Shown here one piece after another: positions 3,517 through 14,068 of a stretch of 24,207 bases of DNA. How positions within the stretch are numbered: the first letter of the stretch is position 1; each line of letters begins with the position of its first letter. Source of the stretch: a virus; IMG/VR virus record IMGVR_UViG_3300032092_000247, positions 1 through 24,207 of that record; one strand, written 5' to 3'. The position numbers and the translations under genes are program-made. The notes under the pieces were generated by a model. That model saw only the letters and a program-made list of their open reading frames with translations. It made no database searches and had not been told where the DNA came from.

Positions 3517-3533
3517 GTTGGGTTTATACCAAC
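3517..3533. promoter_or_regulatory. Putative repressor operator O1 (17-bp dyad over a -10 box)
   Basis: GTTGGGTTTATACCAAC, arms GTTGG/CCAAC around a 7-base centre. It covers the -10 element of the leftward recombination promoter, so a bound repressor would block polymerase. It differs from the site at 11912-11928 by one base. Three related sites lie at other promoters in the window. Confidence 0.65.
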
Positions 3534-5291: not shown

Positions 5292-5392
5292 GGCCACCAC
5301 ATCCACGCCATGAACATCACCGCGATAAAGCACCAGGCGGCGCCGGCGAACATGATCCAGGCAATCACCATCATGGGGTCGGAGTCTCTCAT
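5288..5392 (-). CDS. Single-span membrane peptide, 34 aa
   Basis: A 34-residue peptide starting MRDSDPMMVIAWIM, almost entirely hydrophobic from residue 7 to the end. It is rich in Met, Trp and Ala and finishes WMWWP. Start and stop both form ATGA overlaps, with the methyltransferase stop and the helicase start, which strongly supports translation. It is probably an inner-membrane peptide. It shares size, topology class and placement inside an early operon with the 31-residue peptide at 3401-3496, but the sequences are not clearly related. No function can be assigned. Confidence 0.65.
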   Translation of the reverse strand: MRDSDPMMVIAWIMFAGAAWCFIAVMFMAWMWWP

Positions 5393-6558
5393 TGCGATTT
5401 TCCCAAGGCTTCAAGCATGGCGATGCGCTCGCCGATCCATCGCATCACCGGCGCGGCCATCGAGTTCCCTAGCGCCTTGTAGCGTGGGCCATCGGCGGCG
5501 GGCTTCCCGCGATTAGGGACTAGCGTGTAATCGTCGGGGAAGCCTTGCAGGCGCTCGCATTCGCGCGGGGTCAGGCGGCGCACGGCGGCGGCATAGGCAA
5601 TCGCTGGCGCGTGGGCCCCGGCTGCAAGCGGATGGCAAGCATCGCCCGGCTTTGGTTTGCTGAAATTTCCGGGACTGGTGATCTGCGTCGTATCAAACGC
5701 CATGGCTTGCCCTTGGTGGCTTTGCAGCGTCAGCGCGCAATCGTCGGCGGTATGAAGGCCGATGCTGCCGCCTTGCTGGTGCGCAAAAGCGGTCGTGATG
5801 AACGTCTCGCTTTCAAAGTCGCATTTGAAGCCTGCCCCCGGCTGCGCCAGCAGCGCGGGCGTCACGTCAATAGGGCCGCTTGTGCGGTTGCCACCAAAAC
5901 AAACCGGAATAAAGGCGCCGTTATTGTCTAGATCGGTTGTGCGAAAGCCGCCGCTTTGAGAGCTTCCACCAAGAGTTCCGGCAACACTTTCCCCCGCTTC
6001 TCGGCGCGGCGCAGAATGCCCCTGCAAGCTGTGGCGCTCAAAAAGAACCGCTGTGGCACGGCGCCAGTCTCCAAGGTATCCGACAACGAACACACGGCGG
6101 CGTCGCTGGGCCACTCCAAAGAATTGAGCGTCAAGGACTCGGTAGGCGATGCCATACCCGAGTTCGACCATGCCCCCGAGTATGGAACCAAAGTCCCGCC
6201 CTCCGTTCGACGACAAGACGCCGGGGACGTTCTCCCACACCAGCCAGCGGGGCCGTGTTCGGTCAGCAAGGCGGAGAAACTCGAGGGCCAGGTTGCCACG
6301 GTCGTCGTCCAGGCCGCCTCTGAGTCCCGCGATGCTGAAGGATTGGCAGGGGGTTCCTCCCACAAGAAGGTCGATTGCTCCATATTCATTGCCTTTAATG
6401 GTGGTGAAGTCCCCATGAAGCGGGACGTGCGGGTAGTGGTGTGCCAGCACGGCGCGCGGGAACGGTTCAATCTCTGAGAAAAATGCAGGCTCCCATCCGA
6501 GCGGATGCCAAGCTGCCGTTGCTGCCTCGATGCCCGAGCAGACTGATCCGTAGCGCAT
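5389..6558 (-). CDS. DNA (cytosine-5-)-methyltransferase
   Basis: A 389-residue C5-cytosine methyltransferase that transfers a methyl group from S-adenosylmethionine to cytosine in a specific DNA site. Conserved motifs in order: SVCSGIEAATAAW (motif I, residues 5-17), the catalytic TPCQSFS with C71 (motif IV), WENVPG (motif VI, 108-113), AQRRRRVFVVG (motif VIII, 150-160), RRLTPRECERLQGFP (motif IX) and GNSMAAPV (motif X, 364-371). A variable target-recognition region lies at about 175-320. The gene seems intact. No partner restriction enzyme is recognisable, so it is probably an orphan phage enzyme for evading host restriction or marking phage DNA. Recognition site unknown. It overlaps both neighbours by one to four bases. 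Confidence 0.95.
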   Translation of the reverse strand: MRYGSVCSGIEAATAAWHPLGWEPAFFSEIEPFPRAVLAHHYPHVPLHGDFTTIKGNEYGAIDLLVGGTPCQSFSIAGLRGGLDDDRGNLALEFLRLADRTRPRWLVWENVPGVLSSNGGRDFGSILGGMVELGYGIAYRVLDAQFFGVAQRRRRVFVVGYLGDWRRATAVLFERHSLQGHSAPRREAGESVAGTLGGSSQSGGFRTTDLDNNGAFIPVCFGGNRTSGPIDVTPALLAQPGAGFKCDFESETFITTAFAHQQGGSIGLHTADDCALTLQSHQGQAMAFDTTQITSPGNFSKPKPGDACHPLAAGAHAPAIAYAAAVRRLTPRECERLQGFPDDYTLVPNRGKPAADGPRYKALGNSMAAPVMRWIGERIAMLEALGKSQ

Positions 6559-6791
6559 CAGAACAGCGCCCCCTGGTCCGGCTCAGACTGCGGGCGGTTC
6601 TGGACATGGTCAGCGCAGTACCATTTGCCGAGCTTCGCGTAGCCCTCCTCGCGCTTGCCATCCATGATCAGCTTCAGGCCGATGACCGGGAAACAATTGA
6701 CCGCCTGGATGGCATCGGCGCCGCACACGTCGCAGGTGTTGCGCCACTTGATCGCGCCGGTTGATCGGCTTTTGAAAAGCTGGACCGGCAT
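6558..6791 (-). CDS. Small Cys-containing hypothetical protein, 77 aa
   Basis: A 77-residue protein starting MPVQLFKSRSTG. It has a CDVCGA pair and a later WYCADH, which together could bind one zinc (Cys, Cys, Cys and His), as in small phage zinc-finger proteins. An alternative GTG lies one codon upstream at 6794. The ATG at 6791 gives a one-base TGATG overlap with cro. The stop similarly overlaps the methyltransferase start. Function is unknown. Lying between cro and the methyltransferase, it is an immediate-early gene. Confidence 0.7.
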   Translation of the reverse strand: MPVQLFKSRSTGAIKWRNTCDVCGADAIQAVNCFPVIGLKLIMDGKREEGYAKLGKWYCADHVQNRPQSEPDQGALF

Positions 6792-6991
6792 CACGCCACC
6801 AGGTCGGTATGCGAGAGTGCAACCTTGCGCCGCTTCGCCTCATCCAGCAGGCGGCGGTGATACTTGGCCGGCACGTTGGCCCAACGAGTCACGGTGCTTT
6901 TGTCGATTCCCAGCAGGCGAGCGACCTCGGCCTGCGATCCAAATGCCTGAGCGAGGCGGGATACCACTTCGGTCTTGCGCTTATCCTCCAT
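6791..6991 (-). CDS. cro: Cro-like transcriptional regulator, 66 aa
   Basis: A 66-residue helix-turn-helix protein. The DNA-binding unit is at about residues 19-40 (SQAEVARLLGIDKSTVTRWA), followed by a VPAKYHRRLLDEAKRR helix, a pattern seen in Cro/YdaS-type phage regulators. It is the first gene of the leftward early operon, divergent from the CI-like gene, which is the classical Cro position. Its promoter (7021-7050) overlaps a candidate operator. Only a weak GGGGG ribosome-site match lies before the ATG at 6991. The expected role is to repress cI and promote lytic growth. The assignment rests on the HTH and on position. Confidence 0.82.
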   Translation of the reverse strand: MEDKRKTEVVSRLAQAFGSQAEVARLLGIDKSTVTRWANVPAKYHRRLLDEAKRRKVALSHTDLVA

Positions 6992-7020
6992 TGATTCCCC
7001 CGGAGATTGCTATGGCCCCC

Positions 7021-7050
7021 ATTATCACATTGTCGTTGGGTTTTTGTCAA
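7021..7050 (-). promoter_or_regulatory. Leftward promoter of the cro operon
   Basis: On the minus strand: -35 TTGACA at 7050-7045, an 18-base spacer, -10 GATAAT at 7026-7021 (or TGATAA with 17 bases). The predicted start at about 7014 gives a leader of about 22 bases before cro. The -35 and part of the spacer lie in the operator-like dyad at 7035-7051. It has the closest match to consensus among the promoters I found. Confidence 0.7.
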
Positions 7051-7051
7051 T
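7035..7051. promoter_or_regulatory. Putative repressor operator O2 at the cro promoter
   Basis: GTTGGGTTTTTGTCAAT. The left arm and centre match the operators at 3517 and 11912 (GTTGGGTTT), while the right arm is imperfect (CAAT for CAAC). It overlaps the -35 and spacer of the cro promoter. Its start is 36 bases from that of O3, consistent with binding on similar faces of the helix. Confidence 0.6.
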
Positions 7052-7070
7052 GGGCCTCGTGGTGTTTTCA

Positions 7071-7087
7071 GTTGCGTTTTGTGCAAC
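7071..7087. promoter_or_regulatory. Putative repressor operator O3 near the cI promoter
   Basis: GTTGCGTTTTGTGCAAC, a perfect dyad with arms GTTGC/GCAAC and a 7-base centre, the same architecture as O1 and O2. It overlaps the weak -35 element of the candidate cI promoter, so it could mediate autoregulation of cI or Cro repression of cI. Confidence 0.65.
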
Positions 7088-7102
7088 GGTGCGTAGTGTA
7101 AT
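7072..7102 (+). promoter_or_regulatory. Possible cI promoter (weak)
   Basis: TTGCGT at 7072-7077 and TGTAAT at 7097-7102 with a 19-base spacer. The match is poor, as is common for maintenance promoters that need activation. The predicted start at about 7109 leaves a leader of about 26 bases. No clear ribosome site precedes the ATG at 7135. The low score reflects the long spacer. Confidence 0.35.
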
Positions 7103-7134
7103 TTTTCCCGTGATGGCTTGGATTCACAATTGAG

Positions 7135-7704
7135 ATGGATACGATCTGGTTTCAGTCGCGGATAAAAACTCTCGGCAAAAGCCAGCGGGCGCTGGCGCAT
7201 GTGCTTGGAATCGACCCTGCGCAAGTCACCAACCTGCTAAAGGGGCGCAGGCGCATGCAGTTACCAGAGGCCGCGGCTGTTGCCGCGTTCCTGAATGTCT
7301 CAGTCGAAGATGTGCTTCAGCATGCCGGTCTTGCCGTGAGCGGCGGAGTTCGGCGCGTCAAGCTTGCCGGGTACGTCGATGAGCACGGGGAAATCCACTT
7401 ATCCGACCGGCCCGAAGGCGAGGTCGATGCGCCGGCACTGTCGCCGGATGGCACGATCGCCGTGCGCATGAAGGGCGACCAGATGCTCATGCGCAGCGGG
7501 GTTTTGTTCTTCGCGCCTGGCGTCGGCGTGAACCCTGACGCGATTGGCCGCCTGTCGGTGGCGCGGGTCGGCGGCGGGCCGTGGCCGGTCCGCACCATCT
7601 CGCCCGGCCTGGAGCCTGGTCGCTATGACCTGGCCGGACCTGCCAGGGATATCGTCGAGGCCAAGCTTTCGGCGGCGTCCCCGGTGCTCTGGATCAGGCC
7701 CTAG
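7135..7704 (+). CDS. CI-like phage repressor (XRE HTH plus degenerate S24-like domain)
   Basis: A 189-residue repressor candidate. The N-terminal XRE helix-turn-helix covers about residues 12-60 (SQRALAHVLGIDPAQVTNLL and LPEAAAVAAFLNVSVEDVL). The C-terminal part (about 75-189) follows the S24/LexA-type order: GYV..., AVRMKGDQMLMRSGVLFF, PGRYDLAG, VLWI. The usual GDSM serine is Gln at residue 116 (GDQM, 114-117), and the region normally holding the catalytic Lys reads PVRTIS (151-156). Self-cleavage therefore looks lost. The gene is divergent from cro and convergent with the primase, with stop codons overlapping in CTAG. Very probably it maintains lysogeny by binding the operators listed here; binding is inferred. 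Confidence 0.85.
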   Translation: MDTIWFQSRIKTLGKSQRALAHVLGIDPAQVTNLLKGRRRMQLPEAAAVAAFLNVSVEDVLQHAGLAVSGGVRRVKLAGYVDEHGEIHLSDRPEGEVDAPALSPDGTIAVRMKGDQMLMRSGVLFFAPGVGVNPDAIGRLSVARVGGGPWPVRTISPGLEPGRYDLAGPARDIVEAKLSAASPVLWIRP

Positions 7705-10430
7705 ATCGCGTCCATCTCCATCTGGCCCGGCACCTCTGAGGGCGCCTCAAAGTGCCTCCATGGCAGCAGCGTGCCGCGCGCCTTCAGCCCTGGCGCGAAG
7801 TGCGTCACGTTCAAGCGCTGCGCTCCGTCGAGCTCGCGCAATGGGCGGCTCCAGTCGGCTTCCCATTGGGTGCCGCGCAATATCTCGCGCCCGAACCGCG
7901 CGCCCGTGGCGGCTATCGCAACCCCTTCCGGCGTGACCTTGATCCCAAGGGGCGCAAGCTGGCGCTTGGCGTCGGATGGCTCGATGACGTGCGTGTCCTG
8001 CATGCCCCGCGCGCTCTGGATGAGCTCTGCCACGGTGGCTTGCTTGTTCGCCCCGCCGCTCGTCACCATGAGGCGTGAGGTGAGGATGCGCTCGAGCAGG
8101 CGCTCGCGGTCTGGCCGGGCGGCGATGGCCGTGTGGTCGTGCCAGTCATATCGCCGAACGAATCCGACCGCCTCATCGAAGGTAATCTTCCTCGTGGTGT
8201 GCAGGCTCACATAGCCCGCGATCAGCGTCCCGATCTGGTCCGCCGCGCGCCGGTCCTTGAGCTCCTGGGCGGCGGCGTCCACGCATGTCGCCACATTGGC
8301 GAGCAAGGCGTCGATGTTGGCCCATGTGCGCAGGAATAGCGCGCTGGCGAAGGTCGGCGTGAACCACGCCCGGATGTCGGCCATCAGGGCCTTGAATGCC
8401 TCCTCCGCCTTCTCGTCCACCCGCTTCCTAAGCACGAGCTTGGTGATCCGTGTCTCATCCGCATGCTGCTTGATGCTGTGCTCGATCGAGGAAAAGCAAA
8501 ACGCAGACCGCACAGTAAAACTCATAGCCTCGCCGCTGGCTGTGCCTTTGCTGACGGTGGACCCGCTCGAGGCAAGCCGGGCCAGATCCAGGATGCCGGT
8601 GATCCGCATTTGGGCGCGCTCGCTTTCCGCCTCGGCTTCGTCCAGCACGATCGGCATGGCGTCGGCGCCAAGCGTTTGCCGGATGCCGGCCTCGGTGGTC
8701 GAGCCCTCAAAGCGCTGCGCAAAGACCCCGATCAAGCGCCACACCACGTCCAGCAGCACGGTCGTCTTGCCGGACCCGGCCCCGCCCGAGATCCAGATAT
8801 GGGGTCGCCAGTGCAGGGCGCCGCACACCGGGGCGATGGCGATCCAGCCCGCGAGCGCAACGGCGGAGAGGGGGTTTTCCCAATTGAGCCTAGCGCAAAG
8901 GTCCGCGACCCGCTTGGCTTCCGTCGCGCCGGCGGGCTCAACGTCGAGGTTCACGTTTCGCATGGGCCGTGTGGCCGGGTAGATGTAGGTCTGGCTCGCC
9001 TCATAGAGATCAATCCGGCGCTGCCGCGAGAGGGCGAATTGCCCAAGGTGGAACACGGGCTCGCTGCCATCGGTCCAAGCGCCGCGCCCGCGCAGCCGGT
9101 CGGGGTGATAAGTCCCGGCCCTGTGCGCTGAGTTCATGAGGGCATTTGCTGCGGCAAGCTCGCCATTGCGGCCGCTCCCAAATTCGCGCTCCCAATAATC
9201 AAGGGGCGCTAGCTGGATGAGGTTCTTCCAGGTGTGGCTTGAGGCGGACAAGGCCACAAGCTGCCTCGTGCCCCGCGGCATGTAGTAGTAATACCCCCCA
9301 TCAAACCCGAGCACCTGATAGTAGGCGTCGAGGTCGCGCGGCTTGGTGGGCTCCCCCTCGATCGGTGGTGGTGGCGGTGGCGCGTCGTCTTCCGGCTCCG
9401 GCTGCTCCGGCTCTGGTGGCTCTGGCGGCGGCGGCTCAGGCGGTGGTGGCGCGTCGGGCTGGTAGGGCAGGGCATTTGCCCGCAACCACGCCACAGCGTC
9501 AGACACGCCCCAGCCCTCGGCTTCAGCGTCGGCTGCATCCCAGCCCTTCGCGCGGGTCTCCTCCGGCTCGGCGATCTTGATCACGCACCCAAGCGCGGCA
9601 AGGCGTGCGGCGATATCACGCGCGGCGTTCATGCCTGGTTCGTCAGCGTCTGGCCAGATGACCACGCTGCGGCCGGCCAGGATATCCCAGCAGGCATGCT
9701 TCACGCCTTGGGTGCCACCCGGCCAGGTGCAGACCGAAAGCGGCGGCAAGAGGCGCGCGGCGGCATCGGCGGCCTTCTCGCCCTCCACGATGATGATCTG
9801 CCCGGTCGCGATTGGCGCGCGGGGCCAATAGAGCGGCCGCGGCGTCGGGAATGGCACGGTCGCCCATGCCTCGCTGCCATCGGCAAGCCTGACGTAGCGC
9901 ACGGTCGGCGTGACCTTCTTCCCGTCATCAAACTCGACCCGCATCACATAGCCGAGAAGCTCGCCGTCGATGTCTCGGTACGGGAAGACCATGCTTGGCC
10001 GCATGCGCCAGATGCGTTCCTTGCGCGGGTTCCAGACCTCGATCTCGGCCCCCGGCTGAAACATCTCATGGCTGTCGCCAATCTCCGCGACCTCGATGCC
10101 GGCATAGGGGTCGAATTGCTCAACCGCGGCGCGCTCAGGGTCGCGCCTGGTGGGTTTCCATTCATCCGCCCCGGTCAGCGTGCGCGCGGCCTGGCCGATC
10201 GAAACCCCGTCAATGCGGGCGATGAAGTCCACCACGTCGCCATGCTCGCCGCACCCGTAGCAGTGGTAGAATTCCTTTGCGTCGGAGACCGTGAAGCTGG
10301 GGCTCTTTTCGTTGTGGAACGGGCAGAGGCCCTTAAACTCGCCCTTGCCGGCCTTTTCGAGCCGGACCCGGCGGCCAACAACGGCGGAGATCTGGTGCTC
10401 GCGGGCGAGCGCCTCAAAGTCAATCTTCAT
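7701..10430 (-). CDS. Primase-helicase fusion (CHC2 zinc finger, TOPRIM, P-loop ATPase)
   Basis: A 909-residue replication protein. Domains: a CHC2 primase zinc finger with C36, H39, C57 and C60 (CPFHNEKSPSF, FYHCYGCG); a TOPRIM domain with IIVEGEK (E216) and WPDADEP (D261, D263); a proline/glutamate-rich linker at about 327-360; then an ATPase/helicase domain with Walker A GGAGSGKT (549-556) and MPIVLDEAE (Walker B, D597-E598), resembling DUF927-type phage helicases. The C-terminus ends MEMDAI. It should synthesise primers and unwind DNA at the phage fork. It is coupled by ATGA to the tandem-HTH gene upstream. Its stop overlaps the cI stop, with no visible terminator, so its transcript may run antisense through cI. 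Confidence 0.93.
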   Translation of the reverse strand: MKIDFEALAREHQISAVVGRRVRLEKAGKGEFKGLCPFHNEKSPSFTVSDAKEFYHCYGCGEHGDVVDFIARIDGVSIGQAARTLTGADEWKPTRRDPERAAVEQFDPYAGIEVAEIGDSHEMFQPGAEIEVWNPRKERIWRMRPSMVFPYRDIDGELLGYVMRVEFDDGKKVTPTVRYVRLADGSEAWATVPFPTPRPLYWPRAPIATGQIIIVEGEKAADAAARLLPPLSVCTWPGGTQGVKHACWDILAGRSVVIWPDADEPGMNAARDIAARLAALGCVIKIAEPEETRAKGWDAADAEAEGWGVSDAVAWLRANALPYQPDAPPPPEPPPPEPPEPEQPEPEDDAPPPPPPIEGEPTKPRDLDAYYQVLGFDGGYYYYMPRGTRQLVALSASSHTWKNLIQLAPLDYWEREFGSGRNGELAAANALMNSAHRAGTYHPDRLRGRGAWTDGSEPVFHLGQFALSRQRRIDLYEASQTYIYPATRPMRNVNLDVEPAGATEAKRVADLCARLNWENPLSAVALAGWIAIAPVCGALHWRPHIWISGGAGSGKTTVLLDVVWRLIGVFAQRFEGSTTEAGIRQTLGADAMPIVLDEAEAESERAQMRITGILDLARLASSGSTVSKGTASGEAMSFTVRSAFCFSSIEHSIKQHADETRITKLVLRKRVDEKAEEAFKALMADIRAWFTPTFASALFLRTWANIDALLANVATCVDAAAQELKDRRAADQIGTLIAGYVSLHTTRKITFDEAVGFVRRYDWHDHTAIAARPDRERLLERILTSRLMVTSGGANKQATVAELIQSARGMQDTHVIEPSDAKRQLAPLGIKVTPEGVAIAATGARFGREILRGTQWEADWSRPLRELDGAQRLNVTHFAPGLKARGTLLPWRHFEAPSEVPGQMEMDAI

Positions 10431-10840
10431 GCTGCCTGCACCGCGCGCGCCTCAATGTCCGCCCTGGCCGCCTGCATGGCGTACCAGACCAGCCTCGACG
10501 CCCCGGTGCGCTCATAGCGGCACCATGATTCCTGCGATATTCCCAAGACTTGCGCCACGACTCCTTGTGTCGCGCCGGTCGCAATGCGCCAGGCTGTGAC
10601 CTCGTGGCCTTTCTTAAACGAGGCCCTGTGCCCAATCGGTCGGCCGCTTGCCTTCAATTTCTCACGGGGTTTCAGGCTCTGAAGGGCCATGAGGTTGCCA
10701 GTTTTGACGCGACCGCGCTCCCAATTACAAACCGTCATAGCGGTCACGCCTAGCGCAATAGCCACGTCGCGCTGGGATAGGTTGCGCTCAACCCGGGCCG
10801 CGCGAAAGGCAGCGCCGGGGAGGGTGGTGGGGGTGGTCAT
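10427..10840 (-). CDS. Regulator with two helix-turn-helix domains, 137 aa
   Basis: Two XRE-like helix-turn-helix units lie in one chain: the first at about residues 20-44 (LSQRDVAIALGVTAMTVCNW), the second at about 90-114 (TQGVVAQVLGISQESWCRYE). A basic linker (KPREKLKASGRPIGHRASFKK) joins them. Tandem HTH proteins can bind two half-sites as a monomer. Directly before the primase, it may be an origin-binding or late-control protein; this is inferred from position only. It has ATGA overlaps with both neighbours. The longest noncoding region, with a palindrome and repeats, lies upstream of this operon and is a plausible target. Confidence 0.75.
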   Translation of the reverse strand: MTTPTTLPGAAFRAARVERNLSQRDVAIALGVTAMTVCNWERGRVKTGNLMALQSLKPREKLKASGRPIGHRASFKKGHEVTAWRIATGATQGVVAQVLGISQESWCRYERTGASRLVWYAMQAARADIEARAVQAA

Positions 10841-11118
10841 AGCGGCATCACCTCCTGGCGTGCGTCATGAACCGTGCCGCCGGTTTCGTTCGGCTCAAAG
10901 GCCGTGCAGCGCGGGCCGAGTGTGGCGTCTGTCACCCATTCTTTCGGATACTCAGGATCATCCACATCAAAGGCCATGGTGTTTGCTGCAATCTCGCAGC
11001 TATCGCCTTCGCCGGCCTGAAATGCAGCATCGCGCCGGCAGCAACCGCACCAGCGCTCCATAAAATCCATACCTTCGCGGCCGCTTGATGGGCGGTAGGC
11101 GTGGGTGGTTGGGCTCAT
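10837..11118 (-). CDS. Cys-containing phage hypothetical protein, 93 aa
   Basis: A 93-residue protein of a common early-phage family of unknown function. Recognisable pattern: YRPSSGREGMDFMERWCGCC at the start, CEIAANTMAFDVDDPEYPKE in the middle, and GPRCTAFEP near the end. Cysteines at 24, 26, 27, 41 and 71 could bind a metal. Family members usually lie in replication or early modules of temperate phages, as here. Both ends are ATGA overlaps, with the 146-residue and tandem-HTH genes. Confidence 0.8.
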   Translation of the reverse strand: MSPTTHAYRPSSGREGMDFMERWCGCCRRDAAFQAGEGDSCEIAANTMAFDVDDPEYPKEWVTDATLGPRCTAFEPNETGGTVHDARQEVMPL

Positions 11119-11555
11119 TTGCTGCCCCCTTCCGCGCGCTCCAGGGCGTCCATGACGGCTTCCATCATGTCTTGAACCTCCTTCAAGTTGCAGTACGTAC
11201 CGCCTTGCAGGTGCGCGCTGCGCTTGGTCAGGCGCAGACGCATCAAGCGCTCCGTGACGTTCAGCAGGCGGCCAATGATGACCACGCCATGCGCGGTCTG
11301 GTTCCGCTCCATGATGTGCGGGAAAGCATGCGCAAGCGCCGCGATGGGCGCCGCGAGCCCGGCTATATCAATCTGGTTCGCATCGGTGGCCTTGGTGCCG
11401 TCCTCCCATGCCCGGAAGGCGTCATAAAGCGACTCGGTGGCCTGTTGGATCGAGGCATTGGCCTCCTCCAGCGCAGCCTCGGCTTCGTCCCGGTCGCAGT
11501 GCTCGTATTCAGGGCTACGCGGGTCGGTGGTGTTCAGGTTGTCAGGGTAGGGCAT
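11115..11555 (-). CDS. Hypothetical helical protein, 146 aa
   Basis: A 146-residue, mostly helical acidic protein starting MPYPDNLNTTDPRSPEYEH. The frame stays open up to 11708, but that part overlaps the preceding gene and has low-complexity, noncoding-like content. The ATG at 11555 has an AGGA ribosome site and a natural phage-protein start. A helix at about 25-50 (DEAEAALEEANASIQQATES) may be coiled coil. No catalytic motif is seen. It ends in an ATGA overlap with the 93-residue gene. Function unknown; replication-operon context. Confidence 0.7.
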   Translation of the reverse strand: MPYPDNLNTTDPRSPEYEHCDRDEAEAALEEANASIQQATESLYDAFRAWEDGTKATDANQIDIAGLAAPIAALAHAFPHIMERNQTAHGVVIIGRLLNVTERLMRLRLTKRSAHLQGGTYCNLKEVQDMMEAVMDALERAEGGSK

Positions 11556-11613
11556 TGGGTTTTTCCTGCGCCGGTCTCTCCCGGCTGTCACGCTCTGCCC
11601 TTCGGCGTTCAAG

Positions 11614-11632
11614 GCCGGGACATCCTCCCGGC
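11614..11632 (-). other. Stem-loop in the 125-base leader between two early genes
   Basis: A 7-bp perfect stem (GCCGGGA / TCCCGGC) with a 5-base loop lies in the untranslated gap 11556-11680. A second short dyad (GCCGG...CCGGC) lies between it and the ribosome site of the 146-residue gene. No U-tract follows, so it is not an intrinsic terminator. It could shape translation or mRNA stability. I see no other gene in this gap. Confidence 0.4.
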
Positions 11633-11680
11633 GGGGCTGGGCGGTATGGCTCAAGGCCAAGGCGCCAAGTGGTTTAAGCC

Positions 11681-11881
11681 TCAAGCCGCCGCCCAATGGC
11701 GAACCCAAAACATCAGGTTGGAGACCTGCATGGTGGCCGCCTCAATCCGCACAGACAGGCTGTGCTTCAGGTGCGCATGCTGCGGCTGCGTCAGCGCGTG
11801 GTTCATTGCGCGGATCGAAGCGTTCAGCTTTTCGACCTGCGTAAGGTTGCTGGCGATGCGGGTGGCGGTGGTGGCTGTCAT
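11681..11881 (-). CDS. Hypothetical protein, 66 aa, first gene of the replication operon
   Basis: A 66-residue protein starting MTATTATRIASNL. It is predicted helical (LTQVEKLNASIRAMNHALTQ and ATMQVSNLMFWVRHWA). A longer frame to 11935 would run into the promoter and is rejected. The ATG at 11881 has a strong GGAGGA ribosome site 9 bases upstream, and the predicted transcript starts near 11911. Function is unknown. A 125-base gap separates it from the next gene, unlike the tight overlaps elsewhere. Confidence 0.7.
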   Translation of the reverse strand: MTATTATRIASNLTQVEKLNASIRAMNHALTQPQHAHLKHSLSVRIEAATMQVSNLMFWVRHWAAA

Positions 11882-11911
11882 CTCTCTATCTCCTCCGGCT
11901 TGATTGCCGTT

Positions 11912-11928
11912 GTTGGGTTTATAGCAAC
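11912..11928. promoter_or_regulatory. Putative repressor operator O4 over a -10 box
   Basis: GTTGGGTTTATAGCAAC, identical to O1 except for one base in the right arm. It covers the -10 of the replication-operon promoter. The conserved flanks and the same position relative to the -10 argue for one shared repressor. Confidence 0.65.
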
Positions 11929-11947
11929 GCTCCAATCACGCCGTCAA
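11918..11947 (-). promoter_or_regulatory. Leftward promoter of the replication operon
   Basis: On the minus strand: -35 TTGACG at 11947-11942, an 18-base spacer, -10 TATAAA at 11923-11918. It is the twin of the promoter at 3523-3552: same hexamers, same spacer length and the same CCCAACA after the -10. The predicted start is about 11911, giving a leader of about 30 bases with the GGAGGA ribosome site. Confidence 0.72.
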
Positions 11948-12077
11948 TAGGTATTTTATAAATATCTTCGCCGCGCCAAGCCAGCAGGAGAGGTAACGGG
12001 GTGGGGCGCGTGTTACGAAATTATCCAACAATACCAACACGATAGCAAAAAAGGTGACGGTTACGCTCCAGATTTGA

Positions 12078-12158
12078 AGATATATATAGAGATAGAGAGA
12101 GAGATAGACATATATATATAATAATAATAATAATCTATTTATGTATGTTGTTGTTGTT
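12078..12158. repeat. Low-complexity microsatellite tract (TA, GA, ATA, TTG runs)
   Basis: Runs of TA, then GA, then TA, then ATA trinucleotides, and finally TTG trinucleotides follow each other within about 80 bases. This is by far the most AT-rich stretch of the window. It could be an unwinding element, a slippage-prone spacer or a promoter upstream region. It encodes no plausible protein on either strand. Confidence 0.7.
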
Positions 12159-12205
12159 ACCTACCCCCTAGCCCCTTGACCTAAAAGGAAAATGTCGAGG
12201 TTACG

Positions 12206-12220
12206 CGAAGTGTCACTTCG
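12206..12220. promoter_or_regulatory. Perfect 15-bp palindrome upstream of terS
   Basis: CGAAGTGTCACTTCG, 7-bp arms around a single central base. Its centre is about 50 bases before the terS ATG, a typical activator position for the candidate late promoter. It is not related to the GTTG...CAAC operators, so it suggests a second DNA-binding regulator. A hairpin role in RNA is possible but the one-base loop makes it unlikely. Confidence 0.5.
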
Positions 12221-12262: not shown

Positions 12263-12742
12263 ATGCCAACCGAAAAACCCAAGGCCAAGCGAGGCCGGCC
12301 TTCCGGCTTCACGGAAGAGATCGCGGCGGAAATCTGCCGGCGAATGGCGCTAGGCGAATCCGTGCGGAAGATCCTGACCGAGCCAGGCATGCCGGACTGG
12401 GCCTCGGTCTGGCGTTGGCTTGAAAGCAACGAGGTTTTTCGCGCCCAATACGCAAGGGCTCGGGAAGCCCAGGCTCATGCCCTTGTGTCGCAGATCTTCG
12501 ACATCGCGGACGACGACTCGGCGGATTGGTCCGAGCGTGATGGCGTGCCGGTGGTGAACGGCGAGGCGATCCAGCGCTCACGCCTGCGGGTCGACACGCG
12601 CAAGTGGTTCGCGTCCAAGGTGCTGCCCAAGCTCTACGGGGACAAGCTTAGCCACGAGGTCACGGGGCAAGGCGGTGCGCCGCTCGTGATCCAGGTCGTG
12701 ACCGGCATTGATCGCAACCCGGGCGACGACGCCGGGAAATGA
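12263..12742 (+). CDS. terS: Terminase small subunit
   Basis: A 159-residue DNA-recognition subunit of the packaging motor. It begins MPTEKPKAKRGRPSGFTEEI; KRGRPSxxT, then an AAEICRRMALGESVRKILTEPGMP helix-turn-helix, is a pattern typical of Sf6-like small terminases. WRWLESNEVFRAQYARAREA and the RLRVDTRKWFASKVLPKLYG block are also conserved in the family. An upstream GTG at 12236 would add nine residues, but its only purine-rich match sits directly against the codon. The ATG at 12263 also lacks a clear ribosome site. The stop overlaps terL as ATGA. It is the first gene of the late operon. Confidence 0.9.
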   Translation: MPTEKPKAKRGRPSGFTEEIAAEICRRMALGESVRKILTEPGMPDWASVWRWLESNEVFRAQYARAREAQAHALVSQIFDIADDDSADWSERDGVPVVNGEAIQRSRLRVDTRKWFASKVLPKLYGDKLSHEVTGQGGAPLVIQVVTGIDRNPGDDAGK

Positions 12743-14051: not shown

Positions 14052-14068
14052 GTTGGTAAAATTACAAC
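14052..14068. promoter_or_regulatory. Operator-like dyad upstream of the portal-region promoter
   Basis: GTTGGTAAAATTACAAC, extended to CGTTG...CAACG, has the GTTG-N9-CAAC architecture of the four early operators, and its first seven bases match the reverse complement of O1. It ends four bases before the -35 of the promoter at 14072-14100 rather than overlapping it. It may be a fifth, activating site, or a chance resemblance. Confidence 0.4.

Follow-up and report, generated by a model that had tools for sequence, protein, structure and literature searches.

Primase and cI-like repressor genes meeting at overlapping stop codons in a probably temperate phage, and possible antisense transcription of cI

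Described systems and the cI region of the window

The closest precedent for the arrangement described here is found in Staphylococcus aureus, where a weakened terminator in the sbrB/lexA/sosA region sends antisense RNA over lexA towards sosA, although bulk LexA seemed unaffected by this RNA and effects were seen under stress or altered promoter ratios (PMC8745188). A related arrangement is the noncontiguous operon, as in menE-menC-MW1733-ytkD-MW1731 of S. aureus and also in its phages, in which one gene of opposite orientation lies inside a same-strand run and is joined to it by a junction without a terminator (PMC7154746). Further marks of such an operon are a single RNA that carries the genes of both flanks across the opposed gene and mutual control between the overlapping transcripts. 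In phage 186, the lytic promoter pR, which CI represses, exerts transcriptional interference on the lysogenic promoter pL (PMC7708051).

The window, by which we mean the whole stretch of DNA analysed (24,207 bases, virus record IMGVR_UViG_3300032092_000247), carries a cI-like repressor gene (7135..7704, plus strand) and, divergent from it, a cro-like gene that is the first of a leftward early operon (6791..6991, minus strand; Pfam P22_Cro 1.4e-6, below cut-off), with a homologue in contig L130. The leftward early genes, those of replication, the cro operon and recombination, are all encoded on the minus strand and broken up by cI alone, so that one opposed gene divides a same-strand run just as in a noncontiguous operon. 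A temperate life style is likely, because the nearest relative, G001, has a Pfam phage integrase at the position matching the first ~350 bases of the window, and these bases, which align opposite that integrase at the DNA level, appear to encode the N-terminal part of an integrase cut by the window end.

The 189-aa repressor combines a helix-turn-helix domain (Pfam HTH_3, 2.3e-7) with a degenerate S24/LexA-type C-terminal domain, for which Pfam S24 gave no match in the window CI even at E 10. An AlphaFold model (mean pLDDT 86.2, pTM 0.59) had the lambda-186 hybrid and lambda repressors as its top Foldseek matches. Despite this lambda-repressor-like fold, the Ala-Gly site and the Ser/Lys pair of self-cleaving (S24, lambda/LexA-type) repressors are both gone: taking as reference a relative in which dipeptide, Ser and Lys are intact (L116), the window CI has Glu-His in place of Ala-Gly, Gln116 in place of Ser and Arg153 in place of Lys. 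The window CI is lambda/LexA-like in its predicted fold, and its sequence supports the view, already put forward in a first-pass annotation of this DNA, that it is non-cleavable.

How this locus compares with the described systems can be set out feature by feature. As in sbrB/lexA/sosA, a convergent repressor gene would be read in antisense towards a gene beyond it, but in the staphylococcal case a bacterial terminator studied by RNA experiments carries a point mutation, while the window lacks the spacer altogether, has a phage CI as its repressor and is known from sequence alone. Compared with a noncontiguous operon, the RNA across cI is only putative and may stop inside cI, and cro has its own promoter. 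The likeness to phage 186 is that a CI-repressed lytic promoter would transcribe against the lysogenic one. In phage 186 pR and pL lie near each other, whereas the opposing promoter of the window is ~4.8 kb away and would act via a convergent gene end. With lambda/P22-type cI-cro regions the window shares divergent cI and cro genes, putative operator-like sites in the shared leader and the lambda-repressor-like fold; it differs from them in the missing cleavage dipeptide and Ser/Lys pair, in having operator-like sites on the replication and recombination promoters as well, and in replication genes that converge on cI instead of being placed after cro. In Bcep22-like Burkholderia phages (BcepIL02, CSP3, JC1), CI has ~30% full-length identity to the window CI and has likewise lost the Ser/Lys pair, and their cI, like that of the window, is flanked by a divergent gene on the opposite strand. 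However, in BcepIL02 and CSP3 RecB- and RecT-like genes follow cI on the same strand, which leaves no convergent primase. The individual pieces are known, and their combination in the phage group of the window appears to be new within the literature that we searched.

The cI-primase junction and its counterparts in relatives

The DNA primase/helicase gene (7701..10430, minus strand; Pfam Zn_ribbon_DnaG 5e-27, PHROG primase 5e-101) is the final gene of the leftward replication operon, and its stop codon overlaps that of cI in CTAG (7701..7704), as the first-pass annotation had noted. The overlap persists in G001, whose primase and cI are 98% and 97% identical to those of the window: there, the stretch 7690-7715 differs at just two positions, 7701 (C>T) and 7704 (G>A), so that CTAG reads TTAA and each stop codon is TAA where the window has TAG. 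A simple scan near the junction found no terminator-like site on either strand, and the stretch 7661-7745 folds no better than its shuffles (z of +0.58 on the plus strand and +0.13 on the minus strand), with the corresponding stretch of G001 likewise at shuffle level (z +0.62 and -0.49). The earlier claim that there is no hairpin with a U-tract nearby is thus borne out at the junction itself, but has to be qualified further along the leftward path, where, 505-525 nt onward and within cI, a GC hairpin precedes UUUU (see below).

Searches with cI and primase alignments recovered the tail-to-tail pair in three further, more diverged contigs, whose primases share 61-69% identity with that of the window; in each of these the two genes are separated by a spacer. 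The gap measures ~84 nt in L020 (primase 69%, cI 65% identity to the window), ~87 nt in L021 (69% and 63%) and ~468 nt in L130 (61% and 58%). All three carry a strong hairpin after primase, while the window and G001 do not. In L020 this hairpin (dG -28.6, z -4.1, tail UUUUA) is the top terminator candidate of the locus; in L021 the hairpin (dG -25.7, z -4.75) has only a weak U-tract; and in L130 it (dG -26.8, z -4.2) is followed by the tail UUUUCUUU and is dissimilar in sequence to the other two. Because three relatives with the convergent pair have strong hairpins, the absence of a terminator in the window is more than a failure of the scan. The window/G001 lineage is the exception, and the terminator was probably lost there, as in read-through of the sbrB/lexA type; loss is the simpler reading, although the unlike sequences of the L130 and L020/L021 hairpins weaken it and its direction is drawn by parsimony from few genomes.

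No convergent cI follows primase in more distant primase relatives (the Bordetella phages PY223 and PBb001, together with Dolphis, S-H1 and ZRG1). Of the cI matches in alphaproteobacterial genomes, the best two (L115 and L116) lack a convergent primase within the flank examined, and a DNA-level search of named phages matched the methyltransferase alone, among the matches listed. A separate feature of L130 is a TTGACG-18-TATAAA promoter with an operator-like site (7688-7704) at the 3′ end of primase (L130:7669-7785). The strong terminator of this contig (z -4.2) stands ~40 nt past that promoter, which predicts an early small RNA of ~75 nt in the primase-cI gap.

Early promoters and operator-like palindromes

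The replication operon (7701..11881, minus strand) begins with a gene whose ATG at 11881-11879 is preceded by a GGAGGAG ribosome site, and continues with two genes of unknown function (11115-11570 and 10837-11118) and an HTH gene next to primase (10427-10840). Its predicted promoter (11918..11947, minus strand) is a good one, with TTGACG (11947-11942) and TATAAA (11923-11918) separated by an 18-bp spacer; TTGACT-17-TATAAA occupies the position in G001. A start near 11911 would follow, in agreement with the leftward start proposed earlier. The -10 element, however, sits within the operator-like palindrome GTTGGGTTTATAGCAAC (11912..11928, given on the plus strand as are the sites below), which is identical in G001, and this argues against the companion proposal that the replication promoter acts as an independent trigger of induction.

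Related palindromes are found at other early promoters. The site GTTGGGTTTTTGTCAAT (7035..7051) covers the -35 of the cro promoter (7021..7050, minus strand; TTGACA-18-GATAAT), is identical in G001 and has counterparts in L020, L021 and L130. In the cI leader, GTTGCGTTTTGTGCAAC (7071..7087), again identical in G001, covers the -35 of a weak candidate cI promoter (7072-7102, TTGCGT-19-TGTAAT). At the leftward YqaJ/RecT recombination promoter (TTGACG-18-TATAAA), the fourth palindrome, GTTGGGTTTATACCAAC (3517..3533), overlies the -10 element at 3528-3523. In this recombination site the arms differ symmetrically between the window and G001, from GTTGG..CCAAC to GTTGC..GCAAC on the minus strand, as expected for a site that would be read by a dimer.

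The exact pattern GTTGSN7SCAAC occurs four times in the window (0.22 expected) and three times in G001 (0.11 expected), and the relaxed pattern RTTGN9CAAY occurs at eight sites in L130 (0.76 expected); these L130 sites include ones in the cI/cro leader and at the start of the replication operon. Both patterns were chosen after the sites had been seen. An initial degenerate pattern, with seven matches against 0.76 expected, was circular, having been built from those very sites. The motif also stands at matching positions in G001, L020 and L021. A further operator-like match falls within the gene for the terminase small subunit (12414-12430) and was discounted as a likely chance occurrence. Exact copies of the 17-mer GTTGGGTTTATAGCAAC were present in seven viral-contig stretches, one of them G001, and the others, at about the number that we estimate for chance, were likewise set aside. 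A weaker operator-like palindrome, GTTGGTAAAATTACAAC, occupies 14052-14068, in the space separating the gene for the terminase large subunit from the following one.

We infer from these positions that CI, Cro or both read the operator-like sites. The palindrome spanning the -10 of the replication promoter is one that the cro and recombination promoters also have, and CI or Cro should therefore keep the replication promoter silent in a lysogen, to fire only once CI is lost.

Upstream of the replication promoter, between the divergent replication and terminase genes, the window has AT-rich simple repeats (ATATAT, AGAGAG, AATAATAATA) at 12060-12170, and similar AT-rich stretches are found in G001, L020 and L021. 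An 18-nt direct repeat, AAAAGGTGACGGTTACGC, is present upstream of the terminase genes at 12049-12066 and 12189-12206 (78% identical), and possibly serves a late regulator.

Proposed antisense transcription of cI and its alternatives

We propose that CI and/or Cro control the three leftward early promoters (cro, replication and recombination) via one shared operator-like palindrome. Upon loss of CI, the replication promoter would be derepressed and fire at the same time as those of cro and recombination, and polymerase would pass the end of primase unterminated to enter cI in antisense for up to ~525 nt. There it would lower cI expression by polymerase collision, by dislodging or by RNA duplex formation, and the lowered expression would reinforce derepression after its onset. 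Antisense transcription could not start induction by this scheme, because the replication promoter would itself be repressed in a lysogen; where the first-pass annotation had seen interference as a route of induction, we would see a reinforcing latch instead. For this reading as a whole, namely shared-operator control, a lost terminator and antisense transcription of cI that reinforces derepression, we estimate a probability of roughly 0.45. Antisense RNA over cI probably helps to maintain the lytic state once it has begun, but if CI has been lost by the time the promoter becomes active, the silencing of cI may add little. We consider it unlikely that the loss of the terminator went so far as to make the replication operon silence its own repressor gene in antisense. 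In that case CI or Cro would repress the replication promoter and the replication transcript would repress cI, a latch of mutual inhibition in a phage whose CI is uncleavable, and one absent from the relatives that carry a terminator.

How far the antisense RNA would reach depends on what it meets within cI. The candidate terminator there (7177..7196, minus strand, dG -10.2) consists of a 6-bp GC stem, GCCAGC-GCCC-GCTGGC (7196-7181), followed by TTTT (7180-7177), and was missed by the first simple scan because that scan requires 5 T. It is identical in G001, also forms in a long fold, and is one of three such hairpins in the window when both strands are counted. Since ~7% of synonymous cI shuffles yield a hairpin as good, it may be a chance match. 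If active, it may halt antisense RNA short of the cI promoter. Untranslated antisense RNA is moreover a usual target of Rho (PMC9931155); a crude rut scan modelled on RhoTermPredict found no rut-like segment in 6900-7760.

These features bear most directly on the alternative that survives best, which is neutral compaction. Here the spacer and terminator would have been deleted without consequence, the leftward RNA would end soon after primase through Rho or the cI hairpin, and the switch would be unaffected. Compact genomes and short overlaps between convergent gene ends are commonplace among phages, and both the common targeting of antisense RNA by Rho and the hairpin with UUUU at 7196-7177 offer the early stop that this alternative calls for. 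Nevertheless, the relatives retain strong hairpins exactly at the end of primase, which suggests that insulation matters, the rut scan speaks against a Rho site, and an RNA ending at 7177 would still cover ~500 nt of cI in antisense. We regard this alternative as credible, if on balance doubtful.

Full read-through, in which RNA from the replication promoter would cross cI and the cro operon and unite the replication genes, antisense cI and cro in a single noncontiguous operon, is improbable. It would fit the single strand shared by all leftward early genes except for cI, the lack of an intrinsic terminator at the junction and the precedent in S. aureus phages (PMC7154746), and the first-pass annotation had likewise taken leftward RNA through cI into cro. 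The part of that claim concerning the junction stands, but the continuation to cro is doubtful given the antisense hairpin with UUUU and possible action of Rho; such a link is also unneeded, cro having its own strong promoter, and the terminator-bearing relatives manage without it. Leftward RNA reaching cro is thus possible but less likely. Very improbable is the opposite direction of transcription, in which cI mRNA, cI being the expressed gene of the lysogen and no rightward terminator candidate appearing close after it in our scans, would read past the junction in antisense to primase and so provide a second safeguard against leaky expression of the replication genes: the candidate promoter of cI is weak, the replication promoter is apparently already repressed through its operator-like site, and the U-tracts of the relatives point leftward, so as to stop the primase transcript.

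Returning to the preferred reading of a lost terminator and a reinforcing antisense RNA, its interest lies in lytic commitment by phages with an uncleavable CI. Gene order and operator motif are common to the related phages, which differ in one insulating terminator and provide a natural comparison with and without it, so that the insertion or deletion of a single short element could reveal the share of transcriptional interference in the lysis/lysogeny switch.

Elsewhere in the early region, a GC-rich palindromic hairpin (1602-1629, dG -19.9) stands directly after the recT stop of the window and has a counterpart in G001 in inverted orientation. Beside the cro operon, the cytosine methyltransferase gene of the window (5389-6558) is replaced in G001 by an N6/N4-type methylase gene (L017:11070-12071).
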